From: a virus
DNA: 22,935 nucleotides
Strand: one strand, 5' to 3'
IMG/VR virus record: IMGVR_UViG_3300042691_021444
Coordinates: 1 to 22,935 of that record
This document shows, piece after piece, positions 2,147 to 22,629 of this stretch. Made by a program: the position numbers and the translations under genes. Under the pieces are notes generated by a model. It searched no databases, was not told where the DNA came from, and worked only from the letters and a program-made list of their open reading frames with translations. Position 1 is the stretch's first letter. Each line of letters begins with the position of its first letter.

Positions 2147-3391
2147 ATGGGAATTCAAAATTCAATAATATCAAGTAATATTGTAACACAGGGTAATCAA
2201 CAAAGTACACCACAAAATAAAAATGGAGTTGTTTACTCTGTAATTTTAGATGAAACTCACCCAAGAGTAAAAAATTCTAATACACAATATACAACAGAAC
2301 TTATTGGAGCTATTGAATTTAGGTATACTGGTGGTACTTCCGATGGAGATAATGAATTACCAATAGCTTATCCATTTGATAAAAATAACAAAAATCTACC
2401 TGTTAGAAATGAATCGGTAGAAATTATTATTAATGGGTCTGGGCAACCACATTACAGAAGAATAGGTTTAGAGTCTTCACCAAATGTCAGTGCGGACCCA
2501 GAGTATATTAAAAAGAATTATAGTCCAAGAGCTTCATCGGGCATCGAATCAAAAAATGATTCTTATAGAGAAGTTGCAAATACAGGTCAAGCAAAAAGCG
2601 GTCAACAAAATTCAAATAAATACGATGGGTTTGGTAGTTATTTTACCGCACAAACTGGTATTCATAAATTAAAGTTATATGAGGGAGATTATGCTATTGA
2701 AAGCCGTTTTGGGCAATCAATAAGATTTTCTGCATATAATAATGATAAGAATGAATTTTCACCTACAATTATTATAAGAAATAATGAAAATGCAACATCA
2801 AGAAGTAATACGGTTAAACAAAGCACATTAGAAGATATTAACAAAGATGGTAGTACAATTGCACTTACATCTGATAAATATCAAATGGGATTTGTCCCTG
2901 GTACAATTAGTGATAAAGGAACATCTGATTTTGGTAAAAAGCCAGAGTCTTTTGCAAATTATCCAGATAAGTTAATAGGAGACCAGATACTAATAAACTC
3001 GGGAAGAATAATTTTGTCAGCAAAAAATGCTGAAATGATTTTTTATTCAAAAAAGAACTATGGATTTATTTCGGATGGTGCACTTTCAATAGATAATGCT
3101 TTGGGTATTGAAGCTAACGTAGGAGCTGATATTAATGTAACAACTAATGATAGAAATATTAATTTAAATACAAAAAACGGAAAAATTAATTTAGGTAATA
3201 CTCAATTAGAACCATTAGTAAAAGGAAATAAATTAGTTGATTTACTTACTGAATTAATTGATGCTATACTTAAACAACAATATTTAACTCCATCTGGTCC
3301 ATCAAAAATAGGACCAGAAAATTTACCAACTTTTAATAATATAAAATCTAAATTAAAAACTATATTAAGTGAATTAAATTCAACATCGTAA
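2147..3391 (+). CDS. Baseplate central spike, gp5-like OB-fold/beta-helix protein without lysozyme domain
   Basis: A 414-residue protein. Residues about 25-100 resemble the OB-fold of gp5/VgrG spikes (VVYSVILDETHPR, then EFRYTG and AYPFDKNNKNLPVRNESVEI). GDYAIESRFGQSIRFSAY at 180-197 matches the region that precedes the beta-helix in gp5-type proteins of marine T4-like phages. Residues about 275-350 are short alternating strands (ILINSGRIILSAKN, GALSIDN, ININLNTKNGKINLG) as expected for a trimeric beta-helix. T4 gp5 has a lysozyme domain between the OB-fold and the helix; here that position holds only a low-complexity polar linker. The next two genes encode peptidoglycan hydrolases, which may supply the missing activity. 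The gp5-like assignment is from motifs and context; a gpV- or VgrG-like spike is the same functional idea. Confidence 0.75.
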   Translation: MGIQNSIISSNIVTQGNQQSTPQNKNGVVYSVILDETHPRVKNSNTQYTTELIGAIEFRYTGGTSDGDNELPIAYPFDKNNKNLPVRNESVEIIINGSGQPHYRRIGLESSPNVSADPEYIKKNYSPRASSGIESKNDSYREVANTGQAKSGQQNSNKYDGFGSYFTAQTGIHKLKLYEGDYAIESRFGQSIRFSAYNNDKNEFSPTIIIRNNENATSRSNTVKQSTLEDINKDGSTIALTSDKYQMGFVPGTISDKGTSDFGKKPESFANYPDKLIGDQILINSGRIILSAKNAEMIFYSKKNYGFISDGALSIDNALGIEANVGADINVTTNDRNINLNTKNGKINLGNTQLEPLVKGNKLVDLLTELIDAILKQQYLTPSGPSKIGPENLPTFNNIKSKLKTILSELNSTS

Positions 3392-3392
3392 T

Positions 3393-4622
3393 ATGTCTTG
3401 GGAGATTTTTAAACAAAATATTTTAAATGTAGCTAATAATCCAGAAGGTATTCCTGATATTGATACAATAGCAGATTTATATGCTAGAGAATATGATGCA
3501 GCTATAAAAAGAGGTGGAGATTCTGTAAATAATGTTTGTATCAAAAGAGGTAATGTTAGAGCTATGCGAGAATTATTTAGAGCAGCATTGCAAAAGGGTT
3601 TAAATTCAAAAGCTGGTTATGATTTGGTTGGTGAAATGGGACAAGGTGTTTTAGCATATTGGAGTGGAGCCACACTAAATGAATTCCCAATACCAAAAAT
3701 ACCAGCTACAGGCGCTACTCAAAATATTGGGGTCATTAGTAATATTGTAGTTAATCCTGGCAGTTGGCAACCTGTTGTTAATGCTGACCCACCACCACTA
3801 CCAAACGAAGCATTTAAACTTACTCAAGAAGAAATAGAAGCAAAAAAAGAAGAATTAGAAGATGCAAAAAAGCAAGATAATCCAATGGCAGATGATTATG
3901 TTGCTAAAACTCAGTTTGAATTGGATTCGGGTGAAAACTTATCTGTATTAGTTGATGAACCACCACCAAAACCAAGATTTGTAGCAAAAAAAATTCTTAC
4001 ACTTACACCAACGCAATATACACAAACAAATACATTATATGCTAGTGGACCAATAGGGGATAGAATTGTACAAGCAGCAACTGCTGATTTAGGAATTTTA
4101 GAAGGTAAAAATTCAGCTGGTAAATTTATAAACTCTGGTGGTGCAAAAAACCCAAATGGTCAATTACAAGTTGGAGCTTTTGGAAGAATAGATTATATGC
4201 ATCAATTAAATGGATTAAATAATCTTAAACAATTACAAGATACTGGTGATGGGTATTTTTGGTGTGCATCTGCGGTTGGTACCTGGTGGAAAGAGGCAGG
4301 AATTACGGGTTTGGATTTTAGAATACCATGGGTACCTGCTTGGGTTTCTTGGGCACAAAAAAACGGACTTTGGTCAGCAACACCGGTGGTGGGAGCTGCA
4401 ATTATATATAAAGGTGGTGACCATCTTTATTGTCACATTGGTATAGTAAAATCAGTAATAAATGGTGTTGTAACAACAATTGAAGGAAATACAACTGGAG
4501 CTGGATTTAATAGAAATGGATGTACTGTTGCTATAAAGCAACCAAATTTAAAAAGAGTAGCGGGATATGTTATACCACCAGGATCAACATCAGCAGTACC
4601 CACAGAACCACCAACAAAATAA
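3393..4622 (+). CDS. Tail-associated CHAP-domain peptidoglycan hydrolase
   Basis: 409 residues in three parts. Residues 1-130 form a conserved N-terminal domain (YAREYDAAIKRGGD, YDLVGEMGQGVLAYWSGA, FPIPKIPA) that I associate with phage tail proteins. Residues 131-215 are a Pro/Glu-rich linker containing ENLSVLVDEPPPKPRF. Residues about 220-395 are a CHAP amidase/endopeptidase with Cys291 in FWCASAVGTWW, His348 in YCHIGIVKS and the acidic/Asn end IEGNT (363-367), the expected Cys-His-(Glu/Asn) set. CHAP enzymes cut peptidoglycan amide bonds. The gene lies one base after the spike gene and six bases before the M15 peptidase. The linker motif is shared with that next protein, suggesting a common docking site on the spike or hub. 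There is no signal peptide or holin nearby, which favours an entry lysin over a late endolysin. Confidence 0.87.
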   Translation: MSWEIFKQNILNVANNPEGIPDIDTIADLYAREYDAAIKRGGDSVNNVCIKRGNVRAMRELFRAALQKGLNSKAGYDLVGEMGQGVLAYWSGATLNEFPIPKIPATGATQNIGVISNIVVNPGSWQPVVNADPPPLPNEAFKLTQEEIEAKKEELEDAKKQDNPMADDYVAKTQFELDSGENLSVLVDEPPPKPRFVAKKILTLTPTQYTQTNTLYASGPIGDRIVQAATADLGILEGKNSAGKFINSGGAKNPNGQLQVGAFGRIDYMHQLNGLNNLKQLQDTGDGYFWCASAVGTWWKEAGITGLDFRIPWVPAWVSWAQKNGLWSATPVVGAAIIYKGGDHLYCHIGIVKSVINGVVTTIEGNTTGAGFNRNGCTVAIKQPNLKRVAGYVIPPGSTSAVPTEPPTK

Positions 4623-4628
4623 TTTATA

Positions 4629-6179
4629 ATGTCAATAATAGACCCTACTAAAAATACTGGTATAATAGTTGATGATTTTATAACTTATGCACAATCTCAT
4701 TTAACAACAATTAGTGGAATTGTAAATGTTACTGCTATATACCCACCTGGTCCACCGCCCGCTCCTGGTGCAGTTCAATGGCAAGGTTATAACGTAGCAG
4801 GTGCAAGAAGAAGTGAACAATTGGGAACAGCAGAAGACCAAGATACACCGGAAGGAGATGACCCACCTATTGTTGAGAAAAAAGAAGCAGATGAACATGC
4901 TGAAAGAAATGATATGGTTCATATGCCAGATGAAACTTTGATGCCAGAGAATGAGCAATCTGATTTTACACCACAAACAAATTTTGAATTTCCAAGAGAA
5001 GAAAATTTGAGTGTAATGGCTGAAGATCCTGGTGATTTTCCAAAACCAAAATTTAAACCAAAAAAATTTATTGTTGTACAAACAAATCAACATTCTGATG
5101 GAAATATTGGAGCAGGTAATTTAGGACCTCCTCCAAAAATATATGGTAAGGTTGGTGCACAAGCAATGCCGGGTGCTCCTGATTTCAGAGAAAAATATAA
5201 AAATGCATTTATTCCACATGAAGCAATGGTTGGTGTGGCAAAGGGGTCTAGAGATAAGTACAAATACAATGGTACGGGAGGTTGGTATTTATTACATCCA
5301 GAAGCAGCAAGTCAATATTTTAAAATGAAAGACCAGGCCATTAAAGAAAAAATAAGTTGGACTGTAACTTCTGCTTATAGAGATTTTGAACACCAAAAAA
5401 GTTTAGGAAGTGGTTCTACAGTTGCAAAAGCAGGTTCATCACCGCATGGTTGGGGAATGGCTTTGGATTTTTCAGAACTATATGCTCAAGTTAATGGTAG
5501 TGGAAATCCTGCAATTAACAAAGCTGGTAGAGAAAAATCTTCTCTTTACAGATGGTTATCTAATAATGGGCCTAAATATGGTTGGTATAATCCATATAGA
5601 TTAGCTGATGGTGGTGGTGTTGATGAAATGTGGCATTGGGAATATTGGGGACATTATGTTACATATACGGGTAATGATGATGTGCCAGGTGATAATGTGT
5701 TTATAACATATAATATAGATAAAGATTTACCAGCTATGATTGTTTGGGGTGGTATTGATTACGCAACTCCGAATTGGATGGCTACCCAAATTCCACAAAC
5801 ATTAAAAAACTCAAAAAAGATTGTTATAGCACCTTATACTGTACCATTAGAAACTATACAAAACAAATATAAAGGTATAAAAATAGGTTCTGTTTCTGGT
5901 TTCTCAGCCGGAGGTCAGCAGGCTTGGAGACATGCGGGTACTGTACCATTTACAGGTCTCATAGACCCATCTACAACAGCAGAGCATGTAGCTAAAGCAA
6001 AAGTATGGGGTAATGTTGTAATGTTATATAACAACAATAACTGGGGTGGTAAGTATGCTGGTGTTGGTGATAGACAGGTTGAAGCTGCTGTAAAAATGGT
6101 AGGTTCTGCATTAAAAAAAGAAATTGCACACTCAGCAATGCCGGCAGAATTTTTCAGATTATATGGTCATAAGTTATAA
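4629..6179 (+). CDS. Tail-associated VanY-type M15 peptidase fused to a C-terminal alpha/beta-hydrolase-like domain
   Basis: 516 residues. An N-terminal segment with IYPPGPPPAPGAVQWQGY (38-55) is followed by an acidic linker carrying ENLSVMAEDPG...PKPKF (125-142), similar to the linker of the CHAP protein upstream. Residues about 195-347 are an M15/VanY D,D- or L,D-carboxypeptidase-like domain. Its zinc ligands fit SPHGWGMALD (His273, Asp280) and EMWHWEY (Glu333, His336), and TSAYRDFEHQ (247-256) precedes them as usual. Residues about 365-516 look like a compact alpha/beta hydrolase: strand AMIVWGGID, strand KKIVIAP, nucleophile elbow GFSAG (Ser426), strand FTGLIDPS (Asp446), and His501 in KEIAHSAMP. 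The M15 call is firm. The hydrolase call is inferred from the elbow and triad order. Gene order places the protein with the spike and CHAP enzyme as an entry lysin. Confidence 0.88.
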   Translation: MSIIDPTKNTGIIVDDFITYAQSHLTTISGIVNVTAIYPPGPPPAPGAVQWQGYNVAGARRSEQLGTAEDQDTPEGDDPPIVEKKEADEHAERNDMVHMPDETLMPENEQSDFTPQTNFEFPREENLSVMAEDPGDFPKPKFKPKKFIVVQTNQHSDGNIGAGNLGPPPKIYGKVGAQAMPGAPDFREKYKNAFIPHEAMVGVAKGSRDKYKYNGTGGWYLLHPEAASQYFKMKDQAIKEKISWTVTSAYRDFEHQKSLGSGSTVAKAGSSPHGWGMALDFSELYAQVNGSGNPAINKAGREKSSLYRWLSNNGPKYGWYNPYRLADGGGVDEMWHWEYWGHYVTYTGNDDVPGDNVFITYNIDKDLPAMIVWGGIDYATPNWMATQIPQTLKNSKKIVIAPYTVPLETIQNKYKGIKIGSVSGFSAGGQQAWRHAGTVPFTGLIDPSTTAEHVAKAKVWGNVVMLYNNNNWGGKYAGVGDRQVEAAVKMVGSALKKEIAHSAMPAEFFRLYGHKL

Positions 6180-6230: not shown

Positions 6231-6698
6231 ATGAATACTGACAAATTATTACAAGCCATTCAAATCTTAGTTAAAGAGGAACTTAAACAACAACTTCCTA
6301 CTCTTATTAAAGAAGCGGTAAGGTCTGAAATGAAGAAAGTATTGGCTGAACAAAAACAACCAAAAAATACTGGATTGAGTATGGCAAAGGCTATTTTAGG
6401 TGATGATGAACCTAAAGTGGCTGAAACAAAAACTTATACTAAAAACCCAATGATTAATCAAATCCTTAACGAAACTAGAGCCGCAGTATCAAACGATGGT
6501 GGTTTTAGAACAATGAGTTTTGGACAAGGTGATATGGGTTCTATTGTAGGTAGAACTGCTATGGCTGAAAAAATGGGTTATGGTGATTTAGCTAGTGGAG
6601 CTCAAAAGACTGGATTGGGAGTTCAAACTGGTGTTGCAGAATTAGATAAAGCTTTTAATAGAGATTATTCAGAGCTTGTTAAAAGATTTAAGAAATAA
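6231..6698 (+). CDS. Conserved helical phage protein preceding gp25
   Basis: A 155-residue protein. Residues 1-45 are strongly helical and amphipathic (LLQAIQILVKEELKQQLPTL, then a run of Lys/Glu), like a short coiled coil. The centre contains NPMINQILNETRAAVSND (81-98), which I recall from proteins next to baseplate genes in environmental T4-like phages. The C-terminal half is Gly-rich (FGQGDMGSIVGRTAMAEKMG) and ends in a basic helix. No enzymatic motif is visible. It is the first gene after a promoter-like box, and its stop overlaps the start of gp25 (TAATG). It occupies a place where T4-like phages often encode small baseplate or assembly proteins such as gp53, but I see no sequence basis for calling it gp53. 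Confidence 0.7.
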   Translation: MNTDKLLQAIQILVKEELKQQLPTLIKEAVRSEMKKVLAEQKQPKNTGLSMAKAILGDDEPKVAETKTYTKNPMINQILNETRAAVSNDGGFRTMSFGQGDMGSIVGRTAMAEKMGYGDLASGAQKTGLGVQTGVAELDKAFNRDYSELVKRFKK

Positions 6699-7120
6699 TG
6701 GCTATAATTTTAGGTCAAAAGTTAGTAAAAGATACAGAAACGTATAATGATTATGCGATAGGAATAACTTTACCTATACAAATTACAAATGTAGCTTTTA
6801 ATCAATCTTTTACAACTAGAGAGCAGGTTCGTTCTAATATTATAAATTTATTAAAAACAAAAAGAGGTGAAAGAATAATGCAACCTGAGTTTGGTATAGG
6901 ATTGGAATCAATTTTATTTGAATCAATAGATGAGGATACTCAAATAAGAATTCAAAGAGAAATTGAAACAACAATTTCTTTATGGCTTCCTTATGTTGTA
7001 ATAGAAGATTTAATTGTTAATATAAGTGATGAATTGAGAGATAGAAATACAATAGATATATCTCTTAGTTTTTCAATTGTTGATAATGCTGAATTAGAAA
7101 CTGTAACCTTTACTATATAA
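6698..7120 (+). CDS. 25: Baseplate wedge protein gp25
   Basis: A 140-residue protein of the gp25/TssE family, close to T4 gp25 (132 residues). The diagnostic motif RGERIMQPEFG sits at 56-66, preceded by the usual REQVRSNIINLLKT helix and followed by a helix with Glu residues and the closing strands (DISLSFSI). In contractile tails gp25 binds sheath and gp6 and forms the inner wedge core that triggers contraction. It overlaps the upstream stop by one base and is followed after 11 bases by gp6, the standard order. Confidence 0.95.
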   Translation: MAIILGQKLVKDTETYNDYAIGITLPIQITNVAFNQSFTTREQVRSNIINLLKTKRGERIMQPEFGIGLESILFESIDEDTQIRIQREIETTISLWLPYVVIEDLIVNISDELRDRNTIDISLSFSIVDNAELETVTFTI

Positions 7121-7131
7121 AAATATTTAAA

Positions 7132-9165
7132 ATGGCTATCCAAACAACTAATAAGATTTTTAAAAATAAAGGTAGAGATATAAAATATCTTAATAAAGAT
7201 TTTGAAAGCTTTAGAAACAGTTTAATAGAATTTGCAAAAATTTATTTTCCAAAAACCTATTCTGATTTTAATGAAGCTTCTCCTGGTATGATGTTTATTG
7301 AAATGGCATCGTATATAGGAGATGTTTTATCGTACTATGTTGATGATTCTTTAAAAGAATCAATGATGATTTATGCCGAAGATACTAAAAATGTTTTAGC
7401 TTTGGCACAATATTTAGGTTACAAACCAAAAGTAACAGGACCAGCAATAGTAACTCTTTCGGTATATCAACTTATACCGGCAATAGGTAGTGGTGTAAAT
7501 AATAAACCTGATGATAGATTCTTTTTAAAAATTAAAGATGGGTTTGAAGTAAGAACCGAAGATGAAATATATTTTAGAACAACAGAGATAACAGATTTTG
7601 CAGAAGAAGAAAATAGAGAAATATTAGTATATCAAACAGATGCTAACACTGGAGAACCTACATTATATTTGGTTAAAAAATATGTACAAGCTATATCTGC
7701 AAATATAGTTGAAAACACTTTTACATTTGGAACTTATCAACCTTTTCAAACTATAAATTTATCAGAAACAAATATAATTGATATTTTAGATGTTAGAGAT
7801 TCCAATGGAAACAAATGGTATGAAGTTCCCTATTTAGGTCAAGAAATGGTTTTTATAGAACAACCTAATAATGAAGCAAAAGACCCAGATTTATATCAAT
7901 TTAAAACAACAGTCCCATATATTTTAAAGACAATTAAAACACCAAAAAGATTTGTTAAAAAAATAAATTCAGATAGTACAACAACTATTCAATTTGGAGC
8001 AGGAGACCCATCTGCATCTGATGAAGTTCTTATACCAAATTTAAAAAATGTAGGACTTGGATTGCCAAACTCAATAAGTAGATTGGAAGAATCATTTGAC
8101 CCTACAAACTTTTTAAAAACAAAAACATATGGAACATCACCATCAAACACAACTATTACAGTAAGATATTTAGTTGGTGGTGGTGTACAATCAAATGTAG
8201 CAAAAAATACATTGATTACAATTAACAATGTAGAATTTGAAAATGATATTCAAAAATTTAATAGTGTTGAGAGGGGATTATATAACACTGTTGTAAATTC
8301 AATAGCTGTTGATAATGATGCACCTGCTGTTGGTGGTAGAGGTGGTGAAACTGTAGAAGAAATAAGACAAAATGCTTTAGCAAACTTTGGTTCTCAAAAT
8401 AGAGCCGTTACTGCAAAAGATTATCAAGTTAGAGCTTTATCTATGCCTGCAAAATTTGGAGCAATTGCAAAAGCATATGCAACAGCTGATGGAAATTTAG
8501 ATAATAATTCACCTTCTTCTATTTTAGCTTCTCCAAACTCACTACAAGAATTTACAGATTTGGTTTTAAGTTTTGTAAATAAACCAGATACGGAAGAACC
8601 AAATGAACAAACTATAAAAGAAGAAATTCAAAAATATTTGATTGGTAAAACATCAAACGAAAATGAAAAAAATAATCCTTTTGCGATAAATTTATATTTG
8701 TTAGGATATAATAACAATAACAATTTAACTGAATTAAATAGAGCAGTAAAAGAAAATTTAAAAACGTATTTAAACGAATATAGAATATTAACAGATGGTG
8801 TTAATTTTATAGATGGTTTTATAATAAACATCGGTTTAAATTTTGAAATAACAGTTTACAAAAATTATAACAAAAGTGAAGTTTTAGCAAATTGTATAAC
8901 AGCTTTAAAAAATTATTTTAATATCAATAATTGGACATTTAATCAAACAATAAATTTAAGCGAAGTTGAACTTTTAATTGCAAATGTAGAAGGAGTGGGT
9001 TCAGTTCCAATGCTTGAGGTAGTAAATAAATGCGGTGGAAACTATTCAACAAATTCATATAATATAGCAGCAGCTACAAAGGGTAAAGTTGTTTATCCAT
9101 CTTTAGACCCATCAGTTTTTGAAATTAAGTTTCCAGACGCAGATATTAAAGGGAGGGTAAAATAA
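7132..9165 (+). CDS. 6: Baseplate wedge protein gp6 (baseplate J-like)
   Basis: 677 residues, close to T4 gp6 (660). The N-terminal half carries the conserved segments IKYLNKDFESFRNSLIEFAK (17-36) and SPGMMFIEMASYIGDVLSYY (50-69). Residues about 400-440 (GGRGGETVEEIRQNALANFG, then RAVTAKDYQVRA) match the gpJ/gp6 core shared by P2 gpJ, PVC/Afp12-type and T4 proteins. The C-terminal region is a beta-rich dimerisation part (IGLNFEITVYKNY). gp6 with gp7 forms the iris ring around the tube that opens during contraction. It follows gp25 directly. The very end reads GGGAGGGT, which may double as a ribosome site for the next gene 2 bases downstream. The short leader contains ATATTTAAA abutting the ATG, too close to act as a promoter. 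Confidence 0.94.
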   Translation: MAIQTTNKIFKNKGRDIKYLNKDFESFRNSLIEFAKIYFPKTYSDFNEASPGMMFIEMASYIGDVLSYYVDDSLKESMMIYAEDTKNVLALAQYLGYKPKVTGPAIVTLSVYQLIPAIGSGVNNKPDDRFFLKIKDGFEVRTEDEIYFRTTEITDFAEEENREILVYQTDANTGEPTLYLVKKYVQAISANIVENTFTFGTYQPFQTINLSETNIIDILDVRDSNGNKWYEVPYLGQEMVFIEQPNNEAKDPDLYQFKTTVPYILKTIKTPKRFVKKINSDSTTTIQFGAGDPSASDEVLIPNLKNVGLGLPNSISRLEESFDPTNFLKTKTYGTSPSNTTITVRYLVGGGVQSNVAKNTLITINNVEFENDIQKFNSVERGLYNTVVNSIAVDNDAPAVGGRGGETVEEIRQNALANFGSQNRAVTAKDYQVRALSMPAKFGAIAKAYATADGNLDNNSPSSILASPNSLQEFTDLVLSFVNKPDTEEPNEQTIKEEIQKYLIGKTSNENEKNNPFAINLYLLGYNNNNNLTELNRAVKENLKTYLNEYRILTDGVNFIDGFIINIGLNFEITVYKNYNKSEVLANCITALKNYFNINNWTFNQTINLSEVELLIANVEGVGSVPMLEVVNKCGGNYSTNSYNIAAATKGKVVYPSLDPSVFEIKFPDADIKGRVK

Positions 9166-21693: not shown

Positions 21694-22629
21694 ATGCTAT
21701 CGGGTAAGAACAAATTAAAAATAATAACAATATTAGATTCGGCATTGGGTGTTGGTTCTTCTTTAAAGGGGAACGAACAGGCACACTACTGCCCGTTTTG
21801 TAACCATCACAAAAAGAAGTTGCAAGTAAACTTAGATACCCAAAGATGGCATTGTTGGGTATGTGATTCTAAAGGTAGAAGTATATCTTCACTCCTTCGT
21901 AAACTGAATGTAGACCTTAGAGATATAGGGGTTGTAAAAGATGTATATGGTGATGAGCCTGAATATGATACAAAAGAGGAATATGTAGCAAAACTACAAT
22001 TACCAAAAGAGTTCAAACAACTATACTTCAAACCAAAAGGAATTAATCCAGCTTATAATCAGGCAGTACACTACTTAAATAAAAGAGGTATCACTCAAGC
22101 TGACATCGTAAAGTATAACATCGGATATTGTGAAGATGGTTTATATGGTGGAAGGGTTATTATTCCTTCTTACGATGATAATGGTGACCTTAATTACTTT
22201 GTAGCTCGTTCTTTCTATGAGGATGAAAAAATGAAGTATAAGAATCCACCAATCAGCAGAGATGTAATTGTATTTGAGAATATGATTAATTGGAACGAAC
22301 CTATTACTTTAGTTGAAGGTGTATTTGATTCATTCTCTGTTAAGAGAAATGTAATTCCATTGTTGGGTAAGTTCTTACTCAGTAAACTCAAAAATAAAAT
22401 TATGGAAAAGGGTGTTAAGGATGTAACAATTATGTTAGATTCCGATGCCGTTGATGATTCTACAAAGCATACTGAATGGTTTCAAAAGAATGGAATCAAA
22501 GTTAAAAATATTATACCAACTGATAAGGATGCTGGTGAAATGGGTTTTCAAAAAGTAAACGAAATATTAAAATCAGCCAAAGAAACTACATGGGATGATT
22601 TGGTGATGGCTAAGCTGAATAATATATGA
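21694..22629 (+). CDS. DNA primase, T4 gp61-like (zinc finger plus TOPRIM)
   Basis: 311 residues, similar in size to T4 gp61 (342). The N-terminal zinc-binding domain has Cys33/Cys36 in HYCPFCNHH and Cys54/Cys57 in RWHCWVCDSKG. A linker domain follows (NKRGITQADIVKYNIGYCED, 129-148, and GGRVIIPSYDDNG, 152-164). The TOPRIM core shows the acidic residue Glu208 in LVEGVFDSFS and the DxD pair Asp249/Asp251 in IMLDSDAVDD. It would synthesise RNA primers for lagging-strand replication together with a gp41-type helicase not in this window. It is the first gene after a distinct promoter region and overlaps the downstream nuclease gene by four bases (ATGA). Nothing is missing from the expected catalytic set. 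Confidence 0.93.
   Translation: MLSGKNKLKIITILDSALGVGSSLKGNEQAHYCPFCNHHKKKLQVNLDTQRWHCWVCDSKGRSISSLLRKLNVDLRDIGVVKDVYGDEPEYDTKEEYVAKLQLPKEFKQLYFKPKGINPAYNQAVHYLNKRGITQADIVKYNIGYCEDGLYGGRVIIPSYDDNGDLNYFVARSFYEDEKMKYKNPPISRDVIVFENMINWNEPITLVEGVFDSFSVKRNVIPLLGKFLLSKLKNKIMEKGVKDVTIMLDSDAVDDSTKHTEWFQKNGIKVKNIIPTDKDAGEMGFQKVNEILKSAKETTWDDLVMAKLNNI

Follow-up and report, generated by a model that had tools for sequence, protein, structure and literature searches.

The enzymes with which phages enter their hosts are usually taken to be glycosidases, amidases and peptidases. The Tal protein of Staphylococcus phage 80alpha combines a gp27-like hub with a C-terminal GDSL/SGNH esterase-type domain, for which wall degradation was proposed as a predicted activity (PMC7048315). 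The mycobacteriophage enzyme LysB, which acts at the lysis stage, is a cutinase-like mycolylarabinogalactan esterase; it comprises about 254 aa, and its Asp166 and His240 are separated by a long linker (PMC7022511). The fold and the idea of a tail-tip esterase are thus already known, from the GDSL domain of 80alpha Tal (PMC7048315) and from LysB at lysis (PMC7022511). Some alpha/beta hydrolases, the 'group B' enzymes (PMC7034887) and also ZenA (PMC10913051), have their catalytic acid at the alternative position at the C-terminal end of strand 6.

The locus described here lies in a 22.9-kb IMG/VR virus record, and the window refers to this whole stretch of 22,935 nucleotides. The gene at 4629..6179, on the + strand like all features below whose coordinates are written with two dots, encodes a protein of 516 aa consisting of an anchor, a disordered linker, an M15 peptidase and an alpha/beta-hydrolase (ABH) domain. 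The N-terminal anchor B (aa 1-56, MSIIDPTKNT..., 4629..4796) is common to the lysins that related phages have at this position, and a helix at residues 10-25 is predicted with low confidence in the full-length model. It is followed by an acidic, proline-rich linker (aa 57-186, 4797..5186), which is predicted to be disordered and is fast-evolving. The M15/VanY domain (aa 219-344, 5283..5660) is recognised by Pfam VanY over aa 222-341 (E=5.8e-16). Its metal-site residues (5445..5636), H273 (5445-5447) and D280 (5466-5468) in SPHGWGMALD and E333 (5625-5627) and H336 (5634-5636) in DEMWHWEY, follow the pattern HxxxxxxD...ExxH and are kept in orthologues, in agreement with membership of the VanY/M15 family. 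The C-terminal part (aa 355-516, 5691..6176) is a predicted minimal alpha/beta serine hydrolase, as indicated by its predicted structure, fold searches and family conservation. The open reading frame, its coordinates and the residues numbered in an earlier sequence-only reading were all found in the translation; the tail, which had been given there as about 150 residues, measures 162.

The neighbouring lysin (3393..4622) combines anchor A with a CHAP domain (Pfam CHAP, 6e-8), and the genes at 6698..7120 and 7132..9165 encode a gp25-like baseplate wedge protein (GPW_gp25 2e-15; PHROG baseplate wedge 4e-21) and a gp6-like baseplate wedge protein (PHROG baseplate wedge 2e-19), respectively. Because its neighbours are these two wedge genes and a CHAP lysin, the gene can be assigned to a contractile-tail baseplate operon. 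A further protein of the operon (2147..3391) occupies the position where relatives have an ABH domain fused to a spike-like protein, as judged by the operon order with the homologue of 1753-2145 in L101 and L071. The baseplate setting and the fusion of relatives to baseplate parts, including spike-position and hub proteins, are what is expected of a virion-associated lysin and agree with the tail and entry role proposed from the sequence. Judged by gp6, the closest annotated phage is Microcystis phage Mel-JY01 (43%), followed by Flavobacterium phage immuto (39%). Upstream of the baseplate genes, the window encodes a 270-aa protein (889-1701), conserved in L006, with a weak match to C45 autoproteolytic acyltransferases/hydrolases (NF040521, E=2.6e-6, below cut-off), which would place a hydrolase of the Ntn type among tail genes. 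A DnaG-like primase with CHC2 zinc-finger and DNAG_N matches is encoded downstream of the tail genes (21694-22629).

When modelled by AlphaFold2 with 11 family sequences, aa 355-516 fold confidently on their own (pLDDT 93.4, pTM 0.90). In the full-length model (mean pLDDT 60) the ABH domain is retained, the linker is disordered and the remainder is unreliable. Foldseek searches with aa 355-516 returned 21 PDB matches at E<=1e-3, and each of them is an alpha/beta hydrolase according to its description or its known family. They are mostly esterases and cutinase/PETase-like enzymes, such as the siderophore esterase EstB, a PET esterase, a cutinase and 3trd, and lipases are also among the fold matches; TM-scores are moderate, the best among the matches listed being 0.64 (3trd). 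In the viral library, Foldseek matched phage and giant-virus proteins, and those with names are mostly annotated as hydrolases or esterases. The model and both sets of matches therefore agree with the fold that the sequence-only reading had proposed for the tail, and the structure prediction and fold search that it called for yielded no unrelated fold.

The same reading had recognised the order Ser-Asp-His with a GFSAG elbow, and in the model the three residues sit at fitting positions of the fold. Ser426 (5904..5906), in the nucleophile elbow GFSAGG, lies at a strand-helix junction, the candidate catalytic acid Asp446 (5964..5966, GLIDPS) ends the next strand, strand 6, and the candidate catalytic base His501 (6129..6131, EIAHSAMP) opens the last helix. 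The model thus combines the features of the ABH superfamily, namely the fold, a G-x-S-x-G elbow, an acid at the end of strand 6 and a histidine after strand 8. An acid after strand 7 was also considered and rejected because the loop at this position (NNNNW in the window) contains no conserved Asp or Glu across the relatives. Taken as a prediction, the assignment of aa 355-516 to an alpha/beta serine hydrolase with a conserved candidate triad is well supported.

Comparison with the described enzymes shows both common and distinct traits. As in 80alpha Tal, a predicted serine esterase is coupled to a baseplate part in a tail-tip protein, but Tal has an SGNH/GDSL domain and no M15 domain, whereas the window has an alpha/beta-hydrolase fold after M15. 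Like LysB, which attacks a bacterial envelope ester, the domain is a phage alpha/beta hydrolase with GxSxG and Ser-Asp-His, but it has only about 162 aa, lacks the insert between Asp and His, carries its acid on strand 6 and belongs to a baseplate gene. The LysB sequence family (cutinase/PE-PPE) gave no Pfam match in the window or in ABH members. With the 'group B' enzymes (PMC7034887) and ZenA (PMC10913051) the domain shares the order of the catalytic residues and the position of the acid, while it is smaller than typical members and has no detectable sequence kinship to solved structures. The hub 'carboxypeptidase' of phage immuto (NC_055915) contains a VanY domain 49% identical to the M15 domain of the window over aa 200-341 and has a homologous hub in L081, but immuto lacks the alpha/beta-hydrolase domain.

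The closest relatives of the ABH domain are those of L001, which is identical, and L002 (about 89%). More distant ones were collected by pattern scans of viral contigs and verified by hmmsearch, a procedure that would miss members with none of the search motifs, and clustering at about 90% identity left 46 representatives. Ser426, Asp446 and Gly375 are present in 46/46 of these and Trp472 in 45/46. His501 is aligned in 45/46, and L103, the remaining one, has a histidine after an insertion (NHDLIPKWFF). Asp446 was imposed by some of the search patterns, but not by all: L036-L041 and L056 were found by KI[GST]SV[SC]GF, which imposes no residue of the triad. The last scan, which added 28 clusters, used only the pattern F[VTI]GLIDPS and therefore left Ser and His unconstrained in them. 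Free variation of Ser426 or His501, which would speak against a serine hydrolase, was not seen, as both are invariant across the 46 representatives, including these 28 clusters.

When the window is compared with L002, dN/dS amounts to 0.108 for the ABH domain, 0.145 for the M15 domain and 0.476 for the linker (aa 57-165), and the ABH domain is thus under strong purifying selection in this pair. The confident fold, this selection and the conserved triad candidates show that the tail holds more than a fortuitous GxSxG. The domain had also been suspected of being a minimal or degenerate form; the first term holds, whereas a degenerate remnant was rejected as unlikely because of the full triad and the low dN/dS. 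A related view takes the domain for a catalytically inactive alpha/beta fold that serves as a binding or structural module, since accessory domains of lysins are often binders and the activity of this one is a prediction. The three triad residues and a GG of the oxyanion type are retained in relatives ~25-40% identical to the window, which, together with the strong purifying selection, makes this very improbable.

Searches by sequence place the domain outside the known profiles. The C-terminal region has no match in Pfam or PHROGs, and no profile of Pfam, PHROGs or NCBIfam (the last for multi-domain members only) exceeds its cut-off in the family, the best sub-threshold Pfam scores in single ABH members being those of FSH1 (0.011) and Abhydrolase_1 (0.0025). 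PDB sequence searches with one member and with a 43-member profile gave chance matches only, six ABH members used as queries found no significant relative in 50,697 phage records, and bacterial genome contigs showed no ABH relative at the pattern sensitivity used. No description of the family was found in the open literature. The ABH domain defines a family that the searched phage annotation libraries do not contain.

The ABH domain is an add-on, because the orthologous lysins of L006-L013 contain the same anchor and M15 domain and end before it. In other phages it is fused to M15/VanY, M23, CHAP/NlpC, Phage_lysozyme2, PG_binding_1, GDSL or baseplate proteins. In L069 and L073, an M15-ABH module that is 54% identical over 468 aa sits on anchor A, which corresponds to the anchor of the CHAP lysin of the window (54% over 180 aa), while anchor B bears M15 alone. 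Other pairs on anchors A and B are CHAP/M15 (L006), M15_4/M15 (L010) and M15_4/amidase-like (L014). The two adjoining baseplate anchor genes (3393-4622 and 4629-6179 in the window; also in L006, L010, L014 and L069) thus act as swappable enzyme holders with CHAP, M15, M15_4, amidase-like or M15-ABH cargo. The CHAP and M15 lysins of the window share a similar linker segment (3783-4034 and ~4854-5108; 30% identity, E=2.3e-6), which suggests duplication of the lysin holder.

A pairing of ABH with M15 is repeated in several settings, i.e., in the window, L081, L099 (with M23 and VanY), L155 (VanY on a hub-like protein) and L045, and in a tree of 19 members those bearing M15 fall into more than one group, although the deep forks are weak. 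In L081, ABH and a GDSL-like segment (E=0.039, below threshold) are joined to VanY on the hub homologous to that of immuto; this 1401-aa baseplate hub (L081:3702-7904), which has the GDSL-like segment as an insertion besides VanY and ABH, adjoins a second, hub-like paralogue of 1037 aa. The repeated pairing could mean that ABH is a serine carboxypeptidase-like peptidase or amidase that completes the M15 cut. This is quite improbable, as ABH also occurs without any peptidase and its top fold matches are mainly esterases.

Peptidase-free fusions are found in L101, L103, L071 and L088, where ABH is joined to the gene at the spike position, equivalent to 2147-3391 of the window; for L101 and L071 it was tested that this gene directly follows the homologue of 1753-2145. 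ABH accompanies PG_binding_1 in L131, and a 929-aa protein of L139 (L139:2329-5115) contains CHAP/NlpC, ABH, PG_binding_1, Phage_lysozyme2 and a GDSL esterase (7e-10). Both kinds of esterase, GDSL and ABH, thus occur together in L139 and probably in L081, and the ABH target may therefore differ from that of the GDSL esterases. Some stand-alone relatives with no evident signal peptide lie outside tail modules, that of L107 close to a recombination gene and others in surroundings that are unclassified, so that the family is not solely an entry enzyme. A 2902-aa open protein without a Pfam match (L072:3131-11836) contains a distant ABH-like stretch that keeps Ser, Asp and His. An N-terminal tag of the type MKIIITESQ..L or MKKIIRLTENDLIKLVKRVI recurs on otherwise different ORFs, up to 5 of about 10 per contig (L020, L022, L023, L032, L036, L056, L068, L075, L078, L080), and also on several ABH proteins; it is reminiscent of the capsid-targeting sequences of T4.

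That the tail may hold a peptidase and a predicted second hydrolase is well supported, and it is fairly likely that the gene at 4629-6179 encodes a tail-tip lysin with two enzymes, the second of which acts at entry by hydrolysing an ester of the envelope. The N-terminal segment would anchor the lysin in the contractile-tail baseplate, followed by the flexible linker, and the M15 domain would cut the stem peptides of peptidoglycan. The C-terminal minimal alpha/beta serine hydrolase, which would have no room for a large lid, might then, with Ser426, His501 and Asp446 as its catalytic residues, hydrolyse an ester (or amide) of the host envelope during penetration by the tail. We infer that the protein is present in the virion, catalytically active and acting at entry. 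As to the substrate, our leading guess would be the O-acetyl groups of peptidoglycan, with lipid esters as the other leading option.

Lipases are delivered on the spikes of type VI secretion systems, an analogue of a tail hydrolase that acts on lipids. By this analogy ABH could be a phospholipase or a lipid A or lipoprotein deacylase that opens a membrane during the passage of the tail through the envelope, consistent with the lipases and cutinase-like enzymes among its fold matches, the peptidase-free fusions at the spike position and the additional GDSL esterase of L139. The 162-residue fold has neither a lid nor a long hydrophobic insert, and most multi-domain relatives with recognisable partners bear peptidoglycan enzymes or PG-binding domains, so that we regard a lipid target as unlikely. 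An action on decorations of capsule, exopolysaccharide or O-antigen instead of the wall is improbable: phage esterases and deacetylases for surface polysaccharides are known from the literature, but they are typically located on tailspikes or fibres, whereas ABH adjoins CHAP and M15 lysins among the baseplate genes.

With the two-enzyme lysin as the preferred reading, the M15-ABH fusion probably helps the virus to cut through the bacterial envelope. A wider proposal, made tentatively and held as somewhat less than probable, is that this undescribed minimal-ABH family belongs to the standard tail-tip equipment of many uncultivated phages with contractile tails, which form a large group. As a mobile enzyme it would be passed among the genes for spike, hub and lysin, and it would target an envelope ester beyond the reach of known phage lysins. 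As the ABH domain is small, compact and confidently predicted, its substrate is directly testable. The recurrence of a serine hydrolase beside wall enzymes points to a barrier of esters or lipids that must likewise be cut during entry into these hosts.
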